DNA of 64,000 nt, from NCBI RefSeq assembly GCF_014196515.1, contig NZ_JACIDV010000005.1, positions 62,001 through 126,000 of the forward strand, written 5' to 3'. Below, piece by piece: positions 46,562 to 53,020 of this stretch. Made by a program: the position numbers and the translations under genes. A model generated the notes under the pieces. That model searched no databases. It saw only the letters and a list, made by a program, of their open reading frames with translations, and was not told the DNA's origin. The stretch is from Rhizobium skierniewicense (GTDB lineage Bacteria > Pseudomonadota > Alphaproteobacteria > Rhizobiales > Rhizobiaceae). How positions within the stretch are numbered: the stretch's first letter is position 1; the number at the start of each line of letters is the position of its first letter.

Positions 46562-48046
46562 TTAATGCTCCCGCTGGAAACTGACCAGCTCTGCCGAAAT
46601 CCGACAGCTTACGCCACGTGCGTCATACTCGATATCGACGCGGCTATCATCGGCCCCGGCAAGGCCTGCCTTGATCAAACGGGAACCGGACCCTTCCTTC
46701 TCGGGCGCGACGACCGCAGGGCCTCCCCTTTCCGTCCAGACAAGTTCAAACCGTTCCGGATGATGCTCAATGACGTCCCAATGGATATCCACTTTACCGT
46801 CCGGCGATGACAAAGCCCCGTATTTGATCGCGTTGGTCGCCAGCTCATGCAGAATGAGTGATAGGGAGAGAGACGGGCGCGAGCCGACACGTAATTTCGG
46901 TCCCGACACAAAAATCCTTGGCGCCATCGGATCGTCGTGCAGTTCCACCATCTGGTTGACAAGCTTGTGGACCTCGGATGTTCCAATTCCGCCCAGAATA
47001 ACGGTATCATGCGCTGCGCTCAATACGCCGATACGGTCCGAGAGCGTGCGCCTGGCGGATGCAATATCCTTGGCCGTTCTTAGTGTTTGCGACGCGATCG
47101 CCTGCACCATGGCAAGTTGGTTTTTCAGACGATGACCCAACTCATGGGATATCAACTCCCGGTGCTTCTGCTCTGCAAGACGCTCCGTCACATCCTGGGC
47201 TTGAACGAGAATACCGATGATTTCTCCACAGGACGACCGCATAGCCTGATAGACAAGATCGATCATACGTTTTTGCCGCTCGCCGGACGGCCCGCGATTC
47301 AGCTCGACCGGCACGGCACGCGCTGAAAAAGGCTCCCCCGTGCGGTAGACCGTATCAAGCAGATCGATAAAGCCCTGCCGAACAACCTCGGAAACAGCCT
47401 CCGCCACGGGCTTTCCAATGATATCGCGGCCAACGCCGATCATCGAGTAATATTCCTCGTTTGCAAATTCGAACACGTGCGTCGGGCCATTCAGCATCGC
47501 GATGCCCGCAGGCGACATTTCGAAGATCTGAAGCAACTTCTCCTGCTGACTCTTCTGTTCTCGCCGAAGCATGATTTCGTTGGTGATTTCAGAGCATGCG
47601 CAGAACATGCCCAACACCACACCATCACGGTCGCGGACAGGGGTATATGAGAAAGAGAAATGCGTTTCCTCCGGATAGCCCTTGCGATGCATGATAAATT
47701 CGATGTCATCCATCGAAGTCCCCTGCCCGGCATAGGCCGCCGATATGATCGGCTCTACCCCATCCCAGATATCGAACCAAAGATCCTTGAAGGGATGCCC
47801 AAAAGCAGCCGGGTGACGATTGCCGCACATCTCTGCGTAGCCATCATTGTAAAGTGTGATCTGCTTTGGTCCCCACACCATCAACATGGGCTGGAGCGAC
47901 CCGAGCATCACGTTGACGAGCGTCTGCAATTCAACGGGCCATTCATCCGGCAATCCCAACGGACTTTGCTCCCAAGCAAAATCCCGGAATAGATCTCCGC
48001 ATTCGCCACCGCCGATGAATTTCAAAGTCGTCCCCACACGTACCAC
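46562..48046 (-). CDS. PAS-containing HWE-family sensor histidine kinase
   Basis: 494 residues, no membrane helices. Two PAS domains (about 35-160 and 170-290) with PAC segments (HFSFSYTPVRDRDGVVLGMF), then the HWE kinase core: H box SHELGHRLKNQLAMVQAIA, N box LHELATNAIKYGALS and the Trp-x-Glu (LVWTERGGP). HWE kinases often feed the PhyR-NepR-EcfG general stress pathway. The surrounding EcfG-type promoters make that link plausible. Its partner is the following single-domain regulator. Confidence 0.9.
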   Translation of the reverse strand: MVRVGTTLKFIGGGECGDLFRDFAWEQSPLGLPDEWPVELQTLVNVMLGSLQPMLMVWGPKQITLYNDGYAEMCGNRHPAAFGHPFKDLWFDIWDGVEPIISAAYAGQGTSMDDIEFIMHRKGYPEETHFSFSYTPVRDRDGVVLGMFCACSEITNEIMLRREQKSQQEKLLQIFEMSPAGIAMLNGPTHVFEFANEEYYSMIGVGRDIIGKPVAEAVSEVVRQGFIDLLDTVYRTGEPFSARAVPVELNRGPSGERQKRMIDLVYQAMRSSCGEIIGILVQAQDVTERLAEQKHRELISHELGHRLKNQLAMVQAIASQTLRTAKDIASARRTLSDRIGVLSAAHDTVILGGIGTSEVHKLVNQMVELHDDPMAPRIFVSGPKLRVGSRPSLSLSLILHELATNAIKYGALSSPDGKVDIHWDVIEHHPERFELVWTERGGPAVVAPEKEGSGSRLIKAGLAGADDSRVDIEYDARGVSCRISAELVSFQREH

Positions 48047-48489
48047 ACCTGAGCGTTACAATTCCGGGTGTCGGATTTCGTTCCAAAAAACGACAGGCTT
48101 TCCGTCGCATGTAAAAATTTGCGTTAATCCCTTGGAGCGCAAGCGCTTCGGCGATTATCAGCGGAAGATCGGATGACGTATCCGACGTTGAGATCAGCGC
48201 CGCAAACATCATGCATCAACGCGTAAGGCATAAGTCGATTTTTTAAGTTGCCGTGCGGTGCTTAGCAAACGCGCGATCGAATTATCCTCAAGATTATCAT
48301 CTCCTCCTTGTCAATGTTGTCGATATCTAGAATCGCTGTCGTTCCCAAACGCAGATGTCCTTTCCAGAACACATGATGTGGCAACGCCGCGCTTATTAAT
48401 TTTATGTAACTAATATGGAACGAAAGACTGGAGTGGCGGTTAGATCATCACGGAGCCGCAGAGACTGGCCCGCATGAGAGGAAACCACC
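48047..48489. other. Intergenic region between the HWE kinase and a small secreted gene
   Basis: 443 bases between divergent genes. It holds a predicted EcfG promoter for the plus-strand gene (48417-48441) and, on the minus strand near 48085, a GGAAC without a good partner. No RNA gene or repeat recognised. Confidence 0.5.
48417..48441 (+). promoter_or_regulatory. Predicted EcfG promoter of the 48.5 kb gene pair
   Basis: GGAAC (48417-48421), 16 bases, GGTT (48438-48441), 49 bases before the ATG at 48490. Spacing fits; the -10 has G in place of C. Confidence 0.55.
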
Positions 48490-48807
48490 ATGAAGAAGAT
48501 CATTGTTGCGGCAGCGCTGCTCGGCGCGTCCGCTCTTTCCGCTATGGCCCAGACGACACCAGCACCGACCGCTGACGGCAGCACCCCCGCAGTCGCCACG
48601 CCGGGTGCAAACAATGCACCCGCTCCTGTGGAAGGCGCCAACAGCTTCACGGAAGAACAGGCCAAGACACGCATGGAAGAAACCGGCGTAACGGGCGTCA
48701 AAGACCTCATGAAGAACGACAAGGGCATCTGGATGGCATCGGGCATGAAGGACGGCAAGACCGTCTCTGTCGCTCTGGACTACCAGGGTAACGTCGTCGC
48801 CAAGTAA
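48490..48807 (+). CDS. Small secreted stress-type protein (PepSY-like)
   Basis: 105 residues: signal peptide (MKKIIVAAALLGASALSAMA-QT), a Pro/Ala/Thr linker, then a domain of about 55 residues (SFTEEQAKTRMEETGVTGVK, then GIWMASGMKDGKTVSVALDY) with the outline of a PepSY domain. GAGAGG precedes the ATG. It lies 26 bases before the next stress-protein gene and shares its predicted EcfG promoter. Confidence 0.72.
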   Translation: MKKIIVAAALLGASALSAMAQTTPAPTADGSTPAVATPGANNAPAPVEGANSFTEEQAKTRMEETGVTGVKDLMKNDKGIWMASGMKDGKTVSVALDYQGNVVAK

Positions 48808-48832
48808 GCCAACACAATTTGAGGATGAATCC

Positions 48833-49453
48833 ATGAAAACTGTTACCGGACTATTCGATGACCACTCCGATGCGCGCGCTGCGGTGAACGCCCTTGAGGC
48901 ACATGGTGTCCCGTCGGGCGACATCAGCATTGTTTCGAACAATCACAACACAGATGGCCATCACCATGGCGATGTTGATGGTGAATCCAAAGCAGCCGAA
49001 GGCGCGGGCACTGGTGCTGGTATTGGCGCAGTCGTCGGTGGCGCAGGCGGCCTGCTGACAGGTCTCGGCATTATGGCGATCCCGGGCGTTGGCCCCGTCG
49101 TCGCAGCAGGCTGGCTCGCAGCAACGGCCGCTGGCGTTGTCGCAGGCGCGGTAACTGGTGGTGCAGCAGGCGGTATCGTCGGCGCGCTCACGGGCTCCGG
49201 CGTCTCCGAGGAAGATGCACATGTGTATGCCGAAGGCGTCCGCCGGGGCGGCACGATTGTGACGGCTCGTGTCGATGAAGCAATGGTTCCAGAAGCAGAA
49301 GCGATCCTGCAGCGATCCAACTGGGTCGACCCAACCGAACGCAGAACAGCTTACAATCAGGAGGGCTGGAAGCAGTTCGACGACACGCTCGATCCGTACA
49401 ATGCCGACCAGATCGCCAAGGAACGCGACCGTTACCGCCGCCCAGGCCTTTAA
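48833..49453 (+). CDS. General stress protein 17M-like, glycine-zipper protein
   Basis: 206 residues. N-terminal ferredoxin-like segment (MKTVTGLFDDHSDARAAVNA; GVPSGDISIVS) and a middle glycine-zipper hydrophobic region (about 60-125) that may insert in a membrane, followed by a second alpha-beta segment (DAHVYAEGVRRGGTIVTARV) and a basic tail. The architecture is that of GsiB/YflT-type general stress proteins seen in many rhizobia. Exact role unknown. GAGGA precedes the ATG. Confidence 0.75.
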   Translation: MKTVTGLFDDHSDARAAVNALEAHGVPSGDISIVSNNHNTDGHHHGDVDGESKAAEGAGTGAGIGAVVGGAGGLLTGLGIMAIPGVGPVVAAGWLAATAAGVVAGAVTGGAAGGIVGALTGSGVSEEDAHVYAEGVRRGGTIVTARVDEAMVPEAEAILQRSNWVDPTERRTAYNQEGWKQFDDTLDPYNADQIAKERDRYRRPGL

Positions 49454-49519
49454 GTTTCAACTGGATGTTCAGGCGCGCCTGATGCCAAGGCTGACACATC
49501 CGAACAGCAAAAGAGAAAT

Positions 49520-49548
49520 AAGGGCCGCCCGCAAAGGTGGCCCTTTGC
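49520..49548 (+). terminator. Terminator hairpin after the stress-protein pair
   Basis: AAGGGCC (49520-49526) pairs with GGCCCTT (49539-49545), with extra inner CC/GG pairs. The T run is weak. It marks the left edge of the accessory patch. Confidence 0.6.
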
Positions 49549-49746
49549 TTTGCGTGAGATTTTCGCTGGAACGGCAAAATAAGCCTGAACACAGAAAGCG
49601 GATATCACGGCCCTTTGTGGCGGCGGGAACATTCACACATGTGAGGAAGATTTCCCTGAAAGTGTCCCCGGCAGAACAAGGCGCCCGGATTCAGGAGACG
49701 CCTTACCAAACGAAATATAGGTGGAAACGGACGTATCTCCACAGCG

Positions 49747-50241
49747 CTGAGCCGACGACGCAGACTGATCAAACGTGCAGCGCGCTTCCTTTACCTGCAA
49801 CGCACCGCATTCGGCGGCAAAGTTGACCGTCAGAGTTTCGGTGTTTCCATGCAATGTGCACGGTTCAATCTGATGAAGATAGGACCACAGCTAGAAGCCA
49901 TTCACGAGCGAATGACCGGCGTCGTCATCGAACAGCTCCAGTGGTGCCAGTTTATCGAGCGGTATGACCGGCCTGGCATGCTATTTTATCTTGATCCGCC
50001 CTACTGGGGAAACGAGCGCGACTATGGTTATGGTATCTTAGGTCGGGCAGACTTCGCGGAGATGGCCAAGGTTCTGAGTGCTCTTAAAGGGCACGTCATC
50101 CCGTCCTTAAACGCCGTTCCAGGCGTCTTCGAAACCTTCTCGGCCTTTAGAACGGAGGAGGTCGATTGTACCTATTCAGTGGCTGGTGGAACCAATAGTA
50201 AAGTGGTGCGTGAAGTGATTATATCCAACACACGAAGCTAA
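49747..50241 (+). pseudogene. 5'-truncated DNA adenine methylase (Dam, D12 class)
   Basis: The frame is open from upstream of 49747 and the protein is recognisable from about 49770 (AARFLYLQRTAFGGKVDRQS) through MTGVVIEQLQWCQFIERYDR and the catalytic motif LDPPYWGNERDYG to the C terminus at 50241. D12-class methylases are about 280 residues and begin with the SAM-binding PFVGAGG-type segment; that whole part, about 100 residues, is missing, so the enzyme cannot bind SAM. An ATG at 49849 gives only 130 residues. It is a phage-type methylase remnant. Confidence 0.75.
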
Positions 50242-50259
50242 TCGAAAAGGGGTGGACAG

Positions 50260-51167
50260 ATGACAGAAGACAGTAACAAAGCATCAAAACAGCTAAAAAC
50301 GTGCTTTGTCGTCGGGCCAATAGGTGCCAGTTCCACCCCAACTCGCACGCACGCAGATTGGCTGCTTAATGGAATAATCAAGCCAACCTTTTCTGACCAC
50401 TTCAGTGATTTTGAGGTCATCCGTTCAGACACTATCTCGTCCCCTGGTATGATCGACACTCAAATGATCACTCATCTGCTGGAAGCAGAGTTGGTGATCG
50501 TAGATATGAGCCTTTTGAACGCTAACGCATTTTATGAAATGGGTATTCGACATATGGTCGCAAAACCCGTGATCCATATGTTCCTAGAGGGAACAGAGAT
50601 TCCTTTTGATGTGAAGCCTTACAGAGCCATCCCTTTTCAGCTTCAAGAGCATTTTCACTTATTTGATGCACAGAAGCGTTTGGCAAGCGCTGTCAGTTAC
50701 GCGGTCGGGCTGGACTACGTCTCAGAAAACCCTGTCACGAAGGCTAAGGGCTTCCAGCAATTTGAGCAAGCCGCCACGCCAGCTGACAGACTAATGCTGC
50801 ACGAGATGGAGGCTTAAGGCAAGAACTGAACATACTCAAACGCTCACTAGAACACGGAAATCGCCCAAACTTAAAAAGCATTTCGGGACATCAGCAAAGG
50901 CTGAAGTTTGATGACGATTTCGCAGATATCCTTGGTCGTTCCCCAATCTCGGTCGTCCAAATTGACGGCTACACCACAGAGATTTCACCCAAACAGATCA
51001 ACCAGGTCCGAGGTTTAATAGACGGTATCGTCCACCAAGCTCAATGGGTGATTGGTGAAAATGGCCTGACTGTTTTACTCGAAAGCGAAACCGAAGAGAA
51101 TATTACTCGCGTCATTTCTGCGCTGCGAGGTGCCGGAGTTACAAATATAAAGGTACATGGCCAATGA
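50260..51167 (+). pseudogene. TIR/nucleoside-deoxyribosyltransferase-like gene split by a -1 frameshift
   Basis: The first part (50260-50817, 185 residues) carries an NDT/TIR-like fold: CFVVGPIGASSTPTRTHADW, SPGMIDTQMITHLLEAELVI, NANAFYEMGIRH with the candidate catalytic Glu, and IPFDVKPYRAIPF. It stops in the middle of a helix (RLMLHEMEA). In the -1 frame the helix continues at once (LRQELNILKRSLEHG), and 117 codons without a start run to 51165-51167, ending in an alpha-beta domain. One base lost near 50811-50815 explains both. Intact length would be about 302 residues. Such NAD/nucleotide-acting domains often serve defence; that is inference. Confidence 0.7.
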
Positions 51168-51442
51168 GCCCTGAACATCTTGAATTAGATTGTGGATGGA
51201 CCAATCCTCCGCAGCCGGTAACGGAGTGGTCAGCCTGGATGCGGCGTATGCGTGGCGAACTCTTAAAGATGCCCACTTCAAGGGGGTTTAAAAGGTCGCT
51301 TAAATCGAGTTTGACAGGGCGGTTGCAAAACTCAAAATTTGCAAAACGTGCTGTCAAATTTGCAAAACCGCGCTACAGGGTACAACCGAACACTGGTTGG
51401 GTTGGCACAGCGCGAATAGCGACCCAGAAGTGCGAAGAGTAA
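51164..51442 (+). CDS. Small basic protein overlapping the split gene, hypothetical
   Basis: 92 residues. Its ATG overlaps the stop of the frameshifted frame (ATGA at 51164-51167), the usual sign of an operon in this genome. The composition is basic, with Trp-rich start (LDCGWTNPPQPVTEWSAWMR), and the last 35 codons run through the first copy of the direct repeats. No family recognised. It may be genuine or a chance frame; the overlap is the only support. Confidence 0.3.
   Translation: MSPEHLELDCGWTNPPQPVTEWSAWMRRMRGELLKMPTSRGFKRSLKSSLTGRLQNSKFAKRAVKFAKPRYRVQPNTGWVGTARIATQKCEE
51356..51386 (+). repeat. Direct repeat copy A (31 bp)
   Basis: AAATTTGCAAAACCGCGCTA, then CAGGGTACAAC. It matches copies B and C in the order AAATT - (C/G)AAAC - CG - TACA - GGG - ACAAC. 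A half copy (AAATTTGCAAAAC) precedes it at 51335-51347. Confidence 0.7.
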
Positions 51443-51498
51443 TGGGACCGGTGCAAGGAAACAATGCGCCCTAAGAAAGCCTGACGAGGAAATCAGAA

Positions 51499-51524
51499 AC
51501 ACGAGAAATTCCGGTTTCTCGTGT
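51499..51524. repeat. Perfect hairpin in the repeat region
   Basis: ACACGAGAAA (51499-51508) and TTTCTCGTGT (51515-51524) are exact complements with the loop TTCCGG. The left arm plus loop recurs as ACACGAGAAATTCCG at 51556-51570. No T run follows. Confidence 0.75.
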
Positions 51525-51526
51525 CA

Positions 51527-51557
51527 AAATTCCGAAACCGCGGTACAAGGGTACAAC
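51527..51557 (+). repeat. Direct repeat copy B (31 bp)
   Basis: AAATTCCGAAACCGCGGTAC, then AAGGGTACAAC. It differs from copy A at a few positions and from copy C mainly by one indel. Confidence 0.7.
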
Positions 51558-51562
51558 ACGAG

Positions 51563-51592
51563 AAATTCCGAAACGCCGTTACAGGGCACAAC
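51563..51592 (+). repeat. Direct repeat copy C (30 bp)
   Basis: AAATTCCGAAACGCCGTTAC, then AGGGCACAAC. It begins 36 bases after copy B and ends 20 bases before the tRNA 3' end. Confidence 0.7.
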
Positions 51593-51612
51593 AGGCTCGA
51601 TTTAAGAATTTT

Positions 51613-51689
51613 TGGTAGCGGGAGAGGGACTTGAACCCCCGACACGCGGATTATGATTCCGCTGCTCTAACCACCTGAGCTACCCCGCC
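51613..51689 (-). tRNA. tRNA-Met (anticodon CAT)
   Basis: 77 nt on the minus strand, beginning GGCGGGGTAGCTCAGG and ending CTCCCGCTACCA with an encoded CCA. The anticodon stem GCGGA/TCCGC encloses ATCATAA, anticodon CAT. T-arm GGGGGTTCAAGTCCC. The acceptor stem suits elongator tRNA-Met rather than initiator or Ile2. Its 3' end faces the accessory patch, the usual site for integrases. Confidence 0.92.
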
Positions 51690-51823
51690 ACAGAGGAACG
51701 TGACAGTTGCGTTACTGTCGGTCCCTAAGGATGAGCGGCTTATAAGGTGCCGCTCCCTTGAGTGTCAAGCGCAAGATGCGCAAAAACGTCGCTTTATGTC
51801 TTGTGACAAAAACATCAGCGACT

Positions 51824-53020
51824 TCAGGCTGCAACCTTGTTCTGGAGCAGGGCTTTCAGTGCTGCTTCTGCGTCCGCGGAGCGTTCCGAACGCTCGATGA
51901 AGCCACCGCCGTAGACCCGCGCATCGGCGCCGGGGGCCGAGTAGAGAACGCAGGCTTGTCCCGGTGCCACACCCGCCTCGCCGACTGCAAGATCCACATA
52001 GATACCCCTGTCGTCGGCATACAGCACGGCCTCGCCCGGCGGACGTGTGGAGCGGACCTTTGCGAAGCAGGAAAAGCCTCCGATGGCGTCGTCCAGAAGT
52101 GCGTTGTCTCCCAGCCAGTTCATGTCCCGCAAATAGACGCGGTGGGTTTCCAGCGCCTCGCGCGGACCGACGATAACGCGGCGGCCACGGGCGTCCAGAT
52201 GCACCACATAAAGCGGCTCGCCGGTGGCGACGCCAATGCCGCGACGCTGTCCAATCGTATAGTGTACGATACCATCGTGACGACCCAGCACACGACCGTC
52301 GAGATGGACGATATCACCCACCAGCGCCGCGTTTGGTTTCAGCTTGTTGATGATATCGGTATATTTGCCCTGCGGCACAAAACAGATGTCCTGGCTATCG
52401 GCCTTCTGGGCGACGACCAACCCCATCTCTTCCGCGAGCTCACGCGTTTCTGCTTTGGAGAGCCCCCCCAACGGAAAGCGCAGATAATCGATCTGCTCCT
52501 GCGTGGTGGCAAACAGGAACCAGCTTTGGTCACGGTCGCTATCGATGGGGCGATAGAGCGCACGGCGGTTCGGGTGGCCGGGGACGGGATTGAGCCGCGA
52601 TCGAATGTAGTGGCCGGTCGCTAGCGCATCCGCTCCGAGTTCCTGCGCAGTTGCCAGAAGATCAGCGAATTTGACCGTCTGGTTACAGGCCACACACGGC
52701 ACAGGCGTTTCACCCATGGCATAGGCTTCAGCAAAGGGGTTGATCACAGTTTCGCGAAAGCGGGCTTCGTAATCGAGCACGTAATGAGGAATGCCCAGCG
52801 TCTCACAGACGCGACGGGCGTCATCGATGTCCTGTCCAGCACAGCAGGAGCCAGCGCGGTGAACGGCTGCACCGTGGTCATACAGTTGAAGCGTTATGCC
52901 GAGGACATCGTAGCCTTCGCGCTTCAGGATGCCGGCCACCACCGAGGAATCGACCCCACCGGACATGGCGACGACAATACGGGTGTCTTCCGGCTTCTTA
53001 TCAAAGTCGAGCGTATTCAC
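51824..53020 (-). CDS. mnmA: tRNA 2-thiouridylase MnmA
   Basis: 398 residues. PP-loop SGGVDSS (20-26), catalytic Cys in [11 protein letters not shown], the partner Cys in [10 protein letters not shown] and the tRNA-binding [19 protein letters not shown] region. It thiolates U34 of tRNA-Lys, -Glu and -Gln. The C-terminal extension is slightly longer than in E. coli. Identification is certain. It lies upstream of the tRNA-Met gene on the same strand. Confidence 0.95.

Follow-up and report, generated by a model that had tools for sequence, protein, structure and literature searches.

The gene considered here lies at 50260-51167 of a stretch of 64,000 nucleotides from Rhizobium skierniewicense (contig NZ_JACIDV010000005.1, positions 62,001 to 126,000; hereafter the window), in a short insert beside a tRNA-Met gene. 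Its coding sequence is divided between two reading frames (Table 1) that, judged from the DNA, are most simply read as one gene inactivated by a frame break.

The split reading frame

The first half encodes 185 amino acids and ends in HEMEA, directly before a stop codon that falls within a predicted helix. The -1 frame, free of stops from 50787 to 51167 and overlapping the first frame by 31 nucleotides, continues for a further 117 residues, from LRQELNILKRSLEHG to a TGA at 51165-51167. No ATG or TTG occurs in this second half and its sole GTG, at 51048, would give only 39 residues, so that its separate translation was rejected. The second half overlaps by ATGA with a downstream open reading frame (ORF) of 92 amino acids (51164-51442). 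This ORF is probably not a gene and was discarded as a coupled partner: neither Pfam nor PHROG matches it, the fetched loci contain no relative of it and its codon score is poor. The preliminary description of the locus, which had reported the continuing frame, its lack of an ordinary start and the ATGA overlap, was thus accurate on all these points.

Among 5000 random sequences from a first-order Markov model of the same composition, 32 had no stop over 117 codons. The codon score of the second half is -0.03, compared to -0.43 and -0.55 for the two other forward frames; one reverse frame across the same interval scores slightly higher (0.05) but contains seven stops. Homology of the second half to intact relatives, described below, is stronger evidence than openness of the frame. 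As the 31-nucleotide overlap holds no slippery heptamer of the form X XXY YYZ and no start codon supports expression of the second half, the locus is read as a broken gene. The break is plausibly recent, because the second half has gained no further stop and all 40 columns found invariant across 50 relatives are retained in the first.

Table 1. Features of the split gene and of the surrounding insert, in positions of the window.
Feature	Position	Strand	Basis
N-terminal half (185 aa; predicted TIR/NDT-fold domain and start of helical stalk)	50260..50817	+	ORF list, relatives, structure model
C-terminal half in the -1 frame (117 aa; predicted rest of stalk and ferredoxin-like domain)	50814..51167	+	translation, ten-relative alignment, model
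Overlap of both open frames (31 nt), site of the break, no slippery heptamer	50787..50817	+	sequence
AAGGGG, likely ribosome-binding site of the N-terminal half	50247..50252	+	read from the sequence, function inferred
Codon of the predicted catalytic Glu93	50536-50538	+	column conservation in relatives
Insert of about 2.2 kb, from chromosomal gene to tRNA-Met	49454..51612		comparison with A. rubi TR3, GC
Relic of a D12-class adenine methylase (130 aa)	49849..50241	+	below Pfam cut-off; PHROG methyltransferase
tRNA-Met (CAT), a used integration site	51613..51689	-	tRNA call, island in a third species

Intact relatives

In total, 363 related proteins were found. The counts given here rest on the 119 listed besides the window's own protein, the closest alignment was made with the nearest ten of these, and the analyses of invariant columns and of identity in the N-terminal (N) and C-terminal (C) parts used 50 relatives. 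The nearest intact relative is a protein of 301 residues in which both halves are fused and whose first half is 77% identical to that of the window gene. The nearest 17 relatives among those listed are all encoded by a single frame and measure 290-324 residues, and 104 of the 119 extend at least 60 residues past the position of the stop. Relatives that terminate there (at most 20 residues away, or earlier) number five of the 119, with none among the nearest 17. In the alignment with the ten nearest relatives, the second half of the window gene begins exactly at the stop of the first (LRQELNILKR in the window, LRQELAAVKR in the homologue) and is colinear to the end, with one invariant glycine and one nearly invariant tryptophan in the C-domain. 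The placement depends on the sample: when 23 rows were aligned together, the second half was misplaced on the N-domain, whereas with the ten nearest rows it took its place at the C-domain. It had no match in phage records.

In three of the 64 loci of the genome set (L032, L039 and L079) the gene is likewise clearly interrupted by a stop or a frame break; these loci belong to a Beijerinckiaceae metagenome-assembled genome, Bradyrhizobium cenepequi and Skermanella aerolata. Two further loci (L055 and L082) hold short copies and one (L078) lies at a contig edge.

Predicted fold and catalytic residue

In the model of the intact relative, a TIR/nucleoside deoxyribosyltransferase (NDT) fold is followed by a helical stalk, and this by a C-domain of ferredoxin-like fold. 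The N-domain model has the Rossmann-like alpha/beta fold of TIR/NDT type, as in the TIR/NDT (TDS) superfamily, and a structural search indicated that this fold is common to NDT, MilB and DNPH1; the top match is MilB, a cytidine monophosphate (CMP) N-glycosidase. Glu93 is invariant in all 96 alignment rows that have a letter there, and we take it, by motif and position, to correspond to the nucleophile of MilB and SARM1. The N-domain is predicted to split the N-glycosidic bond of NAD or another nucleotide via Glu93. A search by sequence for a relative of solved structure returned six rows headed by a designed coiled-coil protein, which were taken as chance.

The second half of the window gene was modelled separately, from the ten-relative alignment, with strands (E) and helices (H) at E45-51, H59-72, E76-80, E84-90, H94-106 and E112-116. 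The C-domain of the intact homologue is predicted to have the same order (E230-236, H242-256, E259-263, E267-273, H277-289 and E293-299), that is the beta-alpha-beta-beta-alpha-beta succession of ferredoxin-like domains. From residue 61 onward, the blocks of the window model reach a predicted local distance difference test (pLDDT) score of 71-83. The earlier proposal of a broken protein, about 302 residues long, that begins with a TIR/NDT-like domain and ends in an alpha-beta domain is therefore borne out by the fused relatives, by the fold models and, for the first domain, by the structural matches; homologues ending at the stop, which would have spoken against it, are rare.

A constant N-domain and a variable C-domain

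When the 50 relatives were divided at the position of the break, giving 1225 pairs, the two parts differed strongly in conservation. The 23 pairs with N identity of at least 90% show only 35-71% identity in the C part (mean 48), and pairs with N identity of 50-69% have a mean C identity of 23%, compared to 22% for shuffled sequences. The natural alleles of the P0006-P0012 set, for example, have about 95% of the N-domain in common and differ in C. Three of the 1225 pairs are reversed (N 50-53%, C 65-74%) and all involve the protein P0096. This natural chimera has a C-domain 65-74% identical to those of P0056, P0073 and P0074, with N-domains 50-53% identical.

Nonsynonymous (dN) and synonymous (dS) divergence were then compared for 91 of 100 distinct ORFs of the family, the window copy and ORFs lacking a full N-domain being left out, in pairs whose N dS lies at 0.1-1.0 and whose C parts align over 30 codons or more. 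Clades were labelled by locus number; the Streptococcus label was then checked and all eight loci match named Streptococcus phages. In this clade (8 pairs, 8 ORFs), the median dN and dS are 0.027 and 0.56 for N, and 0.306 and 0.58 for C, with omega (dN/dS) of 0.047 in N vs 0.640 in C; the equal dS speaks against plain domain swapping. A second viral clade (L091-L103, 4 pairs) has omega of 0.042 vs 0.229, with C dN exceeding N dN in three of four pairs and dS of 0.74 (N) vs 1.18 (C). In Actinobacteria, 236 non-independent pairs give 0.260 vs 0.473. As a control within the N-domain, its first and second halves yielded 0.016/0.027 and 0.037/0.038 in the viral clades and 0.316/0.084 in Actinobacteria; since the halves differ clearly in the latter, the contrast between N and C is less telling there. 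The C part compared in the viral clades is short (31-72 codons) and is therefore probably not the same ferredoxin-like domain. The proteobacterial clade has no pair with N dS of 0.1-1.0, so that allele divergence and domain swapping are indistinguishable there by DNA.

The insert and a probable second copy

The chromosomal gene that flanks the split gene on one side ends at 49453, and the interval from there to tRNA-Met, on the other side, is 2.16 kb in the window compared to about 0.18 kb in Agrobacterium rubi TR3, the only one of ten fetched relatives in which the flanking stretch (48399-49453) adjoins the tRNA. The GC content of the insert genes is 0.46-0.51, against 0.60 immediately on either side and a window mean of 0.56. 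The methylase relic has an intact relative of 265 amino acids on contig C9, beside tail-fibre and baseplate genes. A third species (G022) carries at the same tRNA-Met an island with a phage-type integrase, bounded on one side by the tRNA and on the other by a 51-base repeat of its 3' end (L131 5542-12250). No integrase was read among the insert ORFs of the window, and a repeat search of 48000-52000 found no flanking att repeat. Given the low GC, the methylase relic and the integrase island, this tRNA-Met is a used integration site and the insert is most likely a decayed mobile element.

Near the same tRNA, Agrobacterium tumefaciens MEJ076 has an ORF of 85 amino acids (L135 8354-8611), without a Pfam family match, whose DNA matches the methylase relic (76% over 136 bases); this suggests repeated or old insertion. 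Short direct repeats and palindromes (CACGAGAAATTCCG, TTGCAAAAC) are clustered at 51300-51600, between the split gene and the tRNA, and genome G010 shows a partial match at the corresponding place (L137 9319-9370).

The genome (4.8 Mb in 33 contigs) holds an apparent single second copy of the gene, split over two contig ends that are each cut by an apparent IS66-type end, with an 8-bp target repeat. The two parts are found at L125 8596-9450 (- strand, contig C8) and L126 8349-8567 (+ strand, contig C12). The same IS66-type end occurs exactly on contig C18, and a version with two mismatches lies just beyond an IS66 transposase on contig C22. The sole other copy found in the genome thus appears to be interrupted by an IS66-type element.

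Distribution, neighbours and known systems

Of 394 genomes of the bacterial family, nine contain a strong relative (E 1e-20 or better), counting that of the window; A. tumefaciens MEJ076 and A. rubi TR3 both carry a member of the gene family. The 64 loci mentioned above come from a species-level genome set, and a further 42 are in viral contigs. Among 50,697 phage records 41 contain a relative, and 40 of these 41 bear the name of a Firmicute genus; among 72,556 plasmid records the number is 67. The family thus occurs in Proteobacteria, Firmicutes, Actinobacteria and temperate phages. Distant relatives of the N-domain in five plasmid records (H26, H31, H34, H35 and H37) are annotated as 'TRAFs-binding domain-containing protein', so that the enzyme domain may elsewhere be attached to other C-terminal parts. 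The gene is found near repressor and integrase genes in Streptococcus phage Javan527, and near repressor and Cro genes in phage IPP5.

Neighbours were compared in 27 loci from proteobacterial genomes and viruses, leaving aside a Nitrospinaceae locus and all Firmicute and actinobacterial loci. No family recurs in more than two of the 27 within 3.5 kb, and a conserved operon partner was therefore rejected; if this is a system at all, the gene works alone. Thoeris (ThsA/ThsB) was set aside on the same count, the insert moreover holding no further full-length gene. No recurrent neighbour in these loci is a possible nucleotide cyclase of CBASS, although no search was aimed at CD-NTase models, and none points to a retron with an NDT effector, for which reverse transcriptase or RNA models were likewise not searched. 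The CBASS TIR effector of PADLOC (PDLC00733) matches four intact relatives weakly (E 3e-6 to 6e-11), over only part of its 388-position profile.

The closest resemblance is to Swarozyc (DUF4062), which is reported to bind the phage portal through its C-terminal domain and to deplete NAD through a TIR-like domain (PMC13174449, bioRxiv 2026). Like the window family, Swarozyc as described there combines in one protein an N-terminal TIR-like domain, a helical stalk and a C-terminal auxiliary domain, its catalytic glutamate E97 corresponding by motif and position to E93 (PMC13174449). The modelled order of elements is similar, C-terminal sensing being putative, whereas the C-domain of the window family is small, hypervariable and predicted to be ferredoxin-like. 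The DUF4062 Pfam model gave no row at E up to 1 with the two window halves and eight intact relatives, and because this sequence test failed we consider the family like Swarozyc in plan, by analogy, and not a member. More broadly, a survey of viral NAD systems places the Rossmannoid TIR, DrHyd and SLOG domains in one class (TDS), whose members serve immunity as N-glycosidic enzymes and as nucleotide sensors. It also mentions rare TIR genes in phages of Firmicutes, with links to SLATT genes, as in Javan281 and SN10 (PMC9503650). The present family resembles the latter as a TIR-fold gene in Streptococcus and Staphylococcus phages, whereas Javan281 and SN10 are not among the 41 matched phage records and no partner recurs in the 27 proteobacterial and viral loci. 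It differs from the TDS class in that Pfam and NCBIfam models stay below their cut-off.

Interpretation

We favour, with a probability of about 0.6, the view that the reading frame of a two-domain gene was broken at codon 186, which likely disarmed a predicted single-protein phage-defence enzyme. In the proposed mechanism, the first half would be a TIR/NDT-fold enzyme cleaving NAD or another nucleotide with Glu93, and the second, carried on a helical stalk, a small domain of ferredoxin-like fold. This second domain would sense a phage component, the stalk would relay the signal and the loss of nucleotide would arrest the infected cell. The split would leave this strain with at most the enzyme half deprived of its sensor; this half is probably inactive alone because the cell lives with it, and the window copy is presumably dead. 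We infer the role of defence effector from the fold, the solo occurrence in prophages, the rapid evolution of the C-domain and precedent. By analogy with Swarozyc, a constant N-domain beside a diversifying C-domain suggests a solo effector with a diversifying sensor.

Several observations weigh against this interpretation. The second half matches the relatives weakly in sequence (best BLASTP E 0.069 at 19% identity; no phmmer match at E 10; hhalign probability 9%), weak similarity of the C-domain being, from the sequences compared, the rule in this family, and the mean pLDDT of its model is only 64. Sequence models see TIR weakly (PADLOC E 7e-7 for the window half) and none of Pfam or NCBIfam reaches its cut-off. 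The ferredoxin-like fold is very common and is no proof of sensing. The C-domain of P0096 has evidently been exchanged, as its sequence identities indicate. C omega exceeds 1 in only 1 of 8, 0 of 4 and 14 of 236 pairs of the three clades; as such values are rare, relaxed constraint remains an alternative to diversifying selection, and the fast change of the C-domain could reflect it instead of an arms race. In Staphylococcus phage SAP-26 the gene lies reversed among replication genes, outside the lysogeny module. Finally, the literature searched, which did not extend to bioRxiv at large or to subscription journals, holds no text on this family and no enzymatic or phage assay of it.

The location in SAP-26 also fits a different function, in nucleotide metabolism instead of defence: the enzyme could, for example, hydrolyse CMP or hydroxymethyl-CMP in the service of phage DNA chemistry. 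MilB as top structural match and the best viral model match ('CMP/hydroxymethyl CMP hydrolase', 27% identity over 264 columns) can be cited for this. That name looks automatically annotated, and the sporadic spread, the lack of a recurrent neighbour and the hypervariable C-domain would be unusual for a metabolic enzyme; we regard this function as unlikely, if still worth considering. A sequencing or assembly error, leaving the gene intact in the cell, is improbable to a greater degree. The assembly is a draft, the break is known from this one strain and the second half keeps its open frame and predicted fold, all of which would fit such an error. An identical protein of 185 amino acids is nevertheless listed on two contigs (possibly one assembly held twice), the adjoining methylase is a relic, so that the insert is decaying, and the other copy in the genome is apparently broken by other means. 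We give least credence to both halves still being made by programmed -1 frameshifting, as the preliminary description had offered as an alternative, or to a functional truncated first half with the rest discarded. The conserved invariant columns, the likely ribosome-binding site and the few short relatives would suit one or the other. Frameshifting was rejected since the overlap has no slippery heptamer and, far from sharing the split, most relatives listed are encoded by one unbroken frame; the missing ATG and TTG of the second half argue in the same direction.

Beyond the broken gene, we tentatively propose, rating it below even odds, an unnamed one-gene immune family carried by phages and lacking a Pfam model, in which a constant nucleotide-cleaving domain is paired with a diversifying and sometimes exchanged ferredoxin-like sensor. 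The two copies found in this genome would then be independent losses, one through a frame break and the other through an insertion sequence, which would fit a protein that is costly to carry. The broken gene of the window itself represents ordinary decay of a mobile insert. The family is more noteworthy, being unnamed by Pfam and NCBIfam, spread over three phyla and temperate phages, and built of a constant enzyme and a variable C part, in which amino acids change about eleven times faster than in N at equal synonymous divergence in the Streptococcus-phage clade. Natural alleles that join near-identical enzymes to different C-domains would make it possible to test directly if the choice of phage to be sensed lies in a small variable domain.
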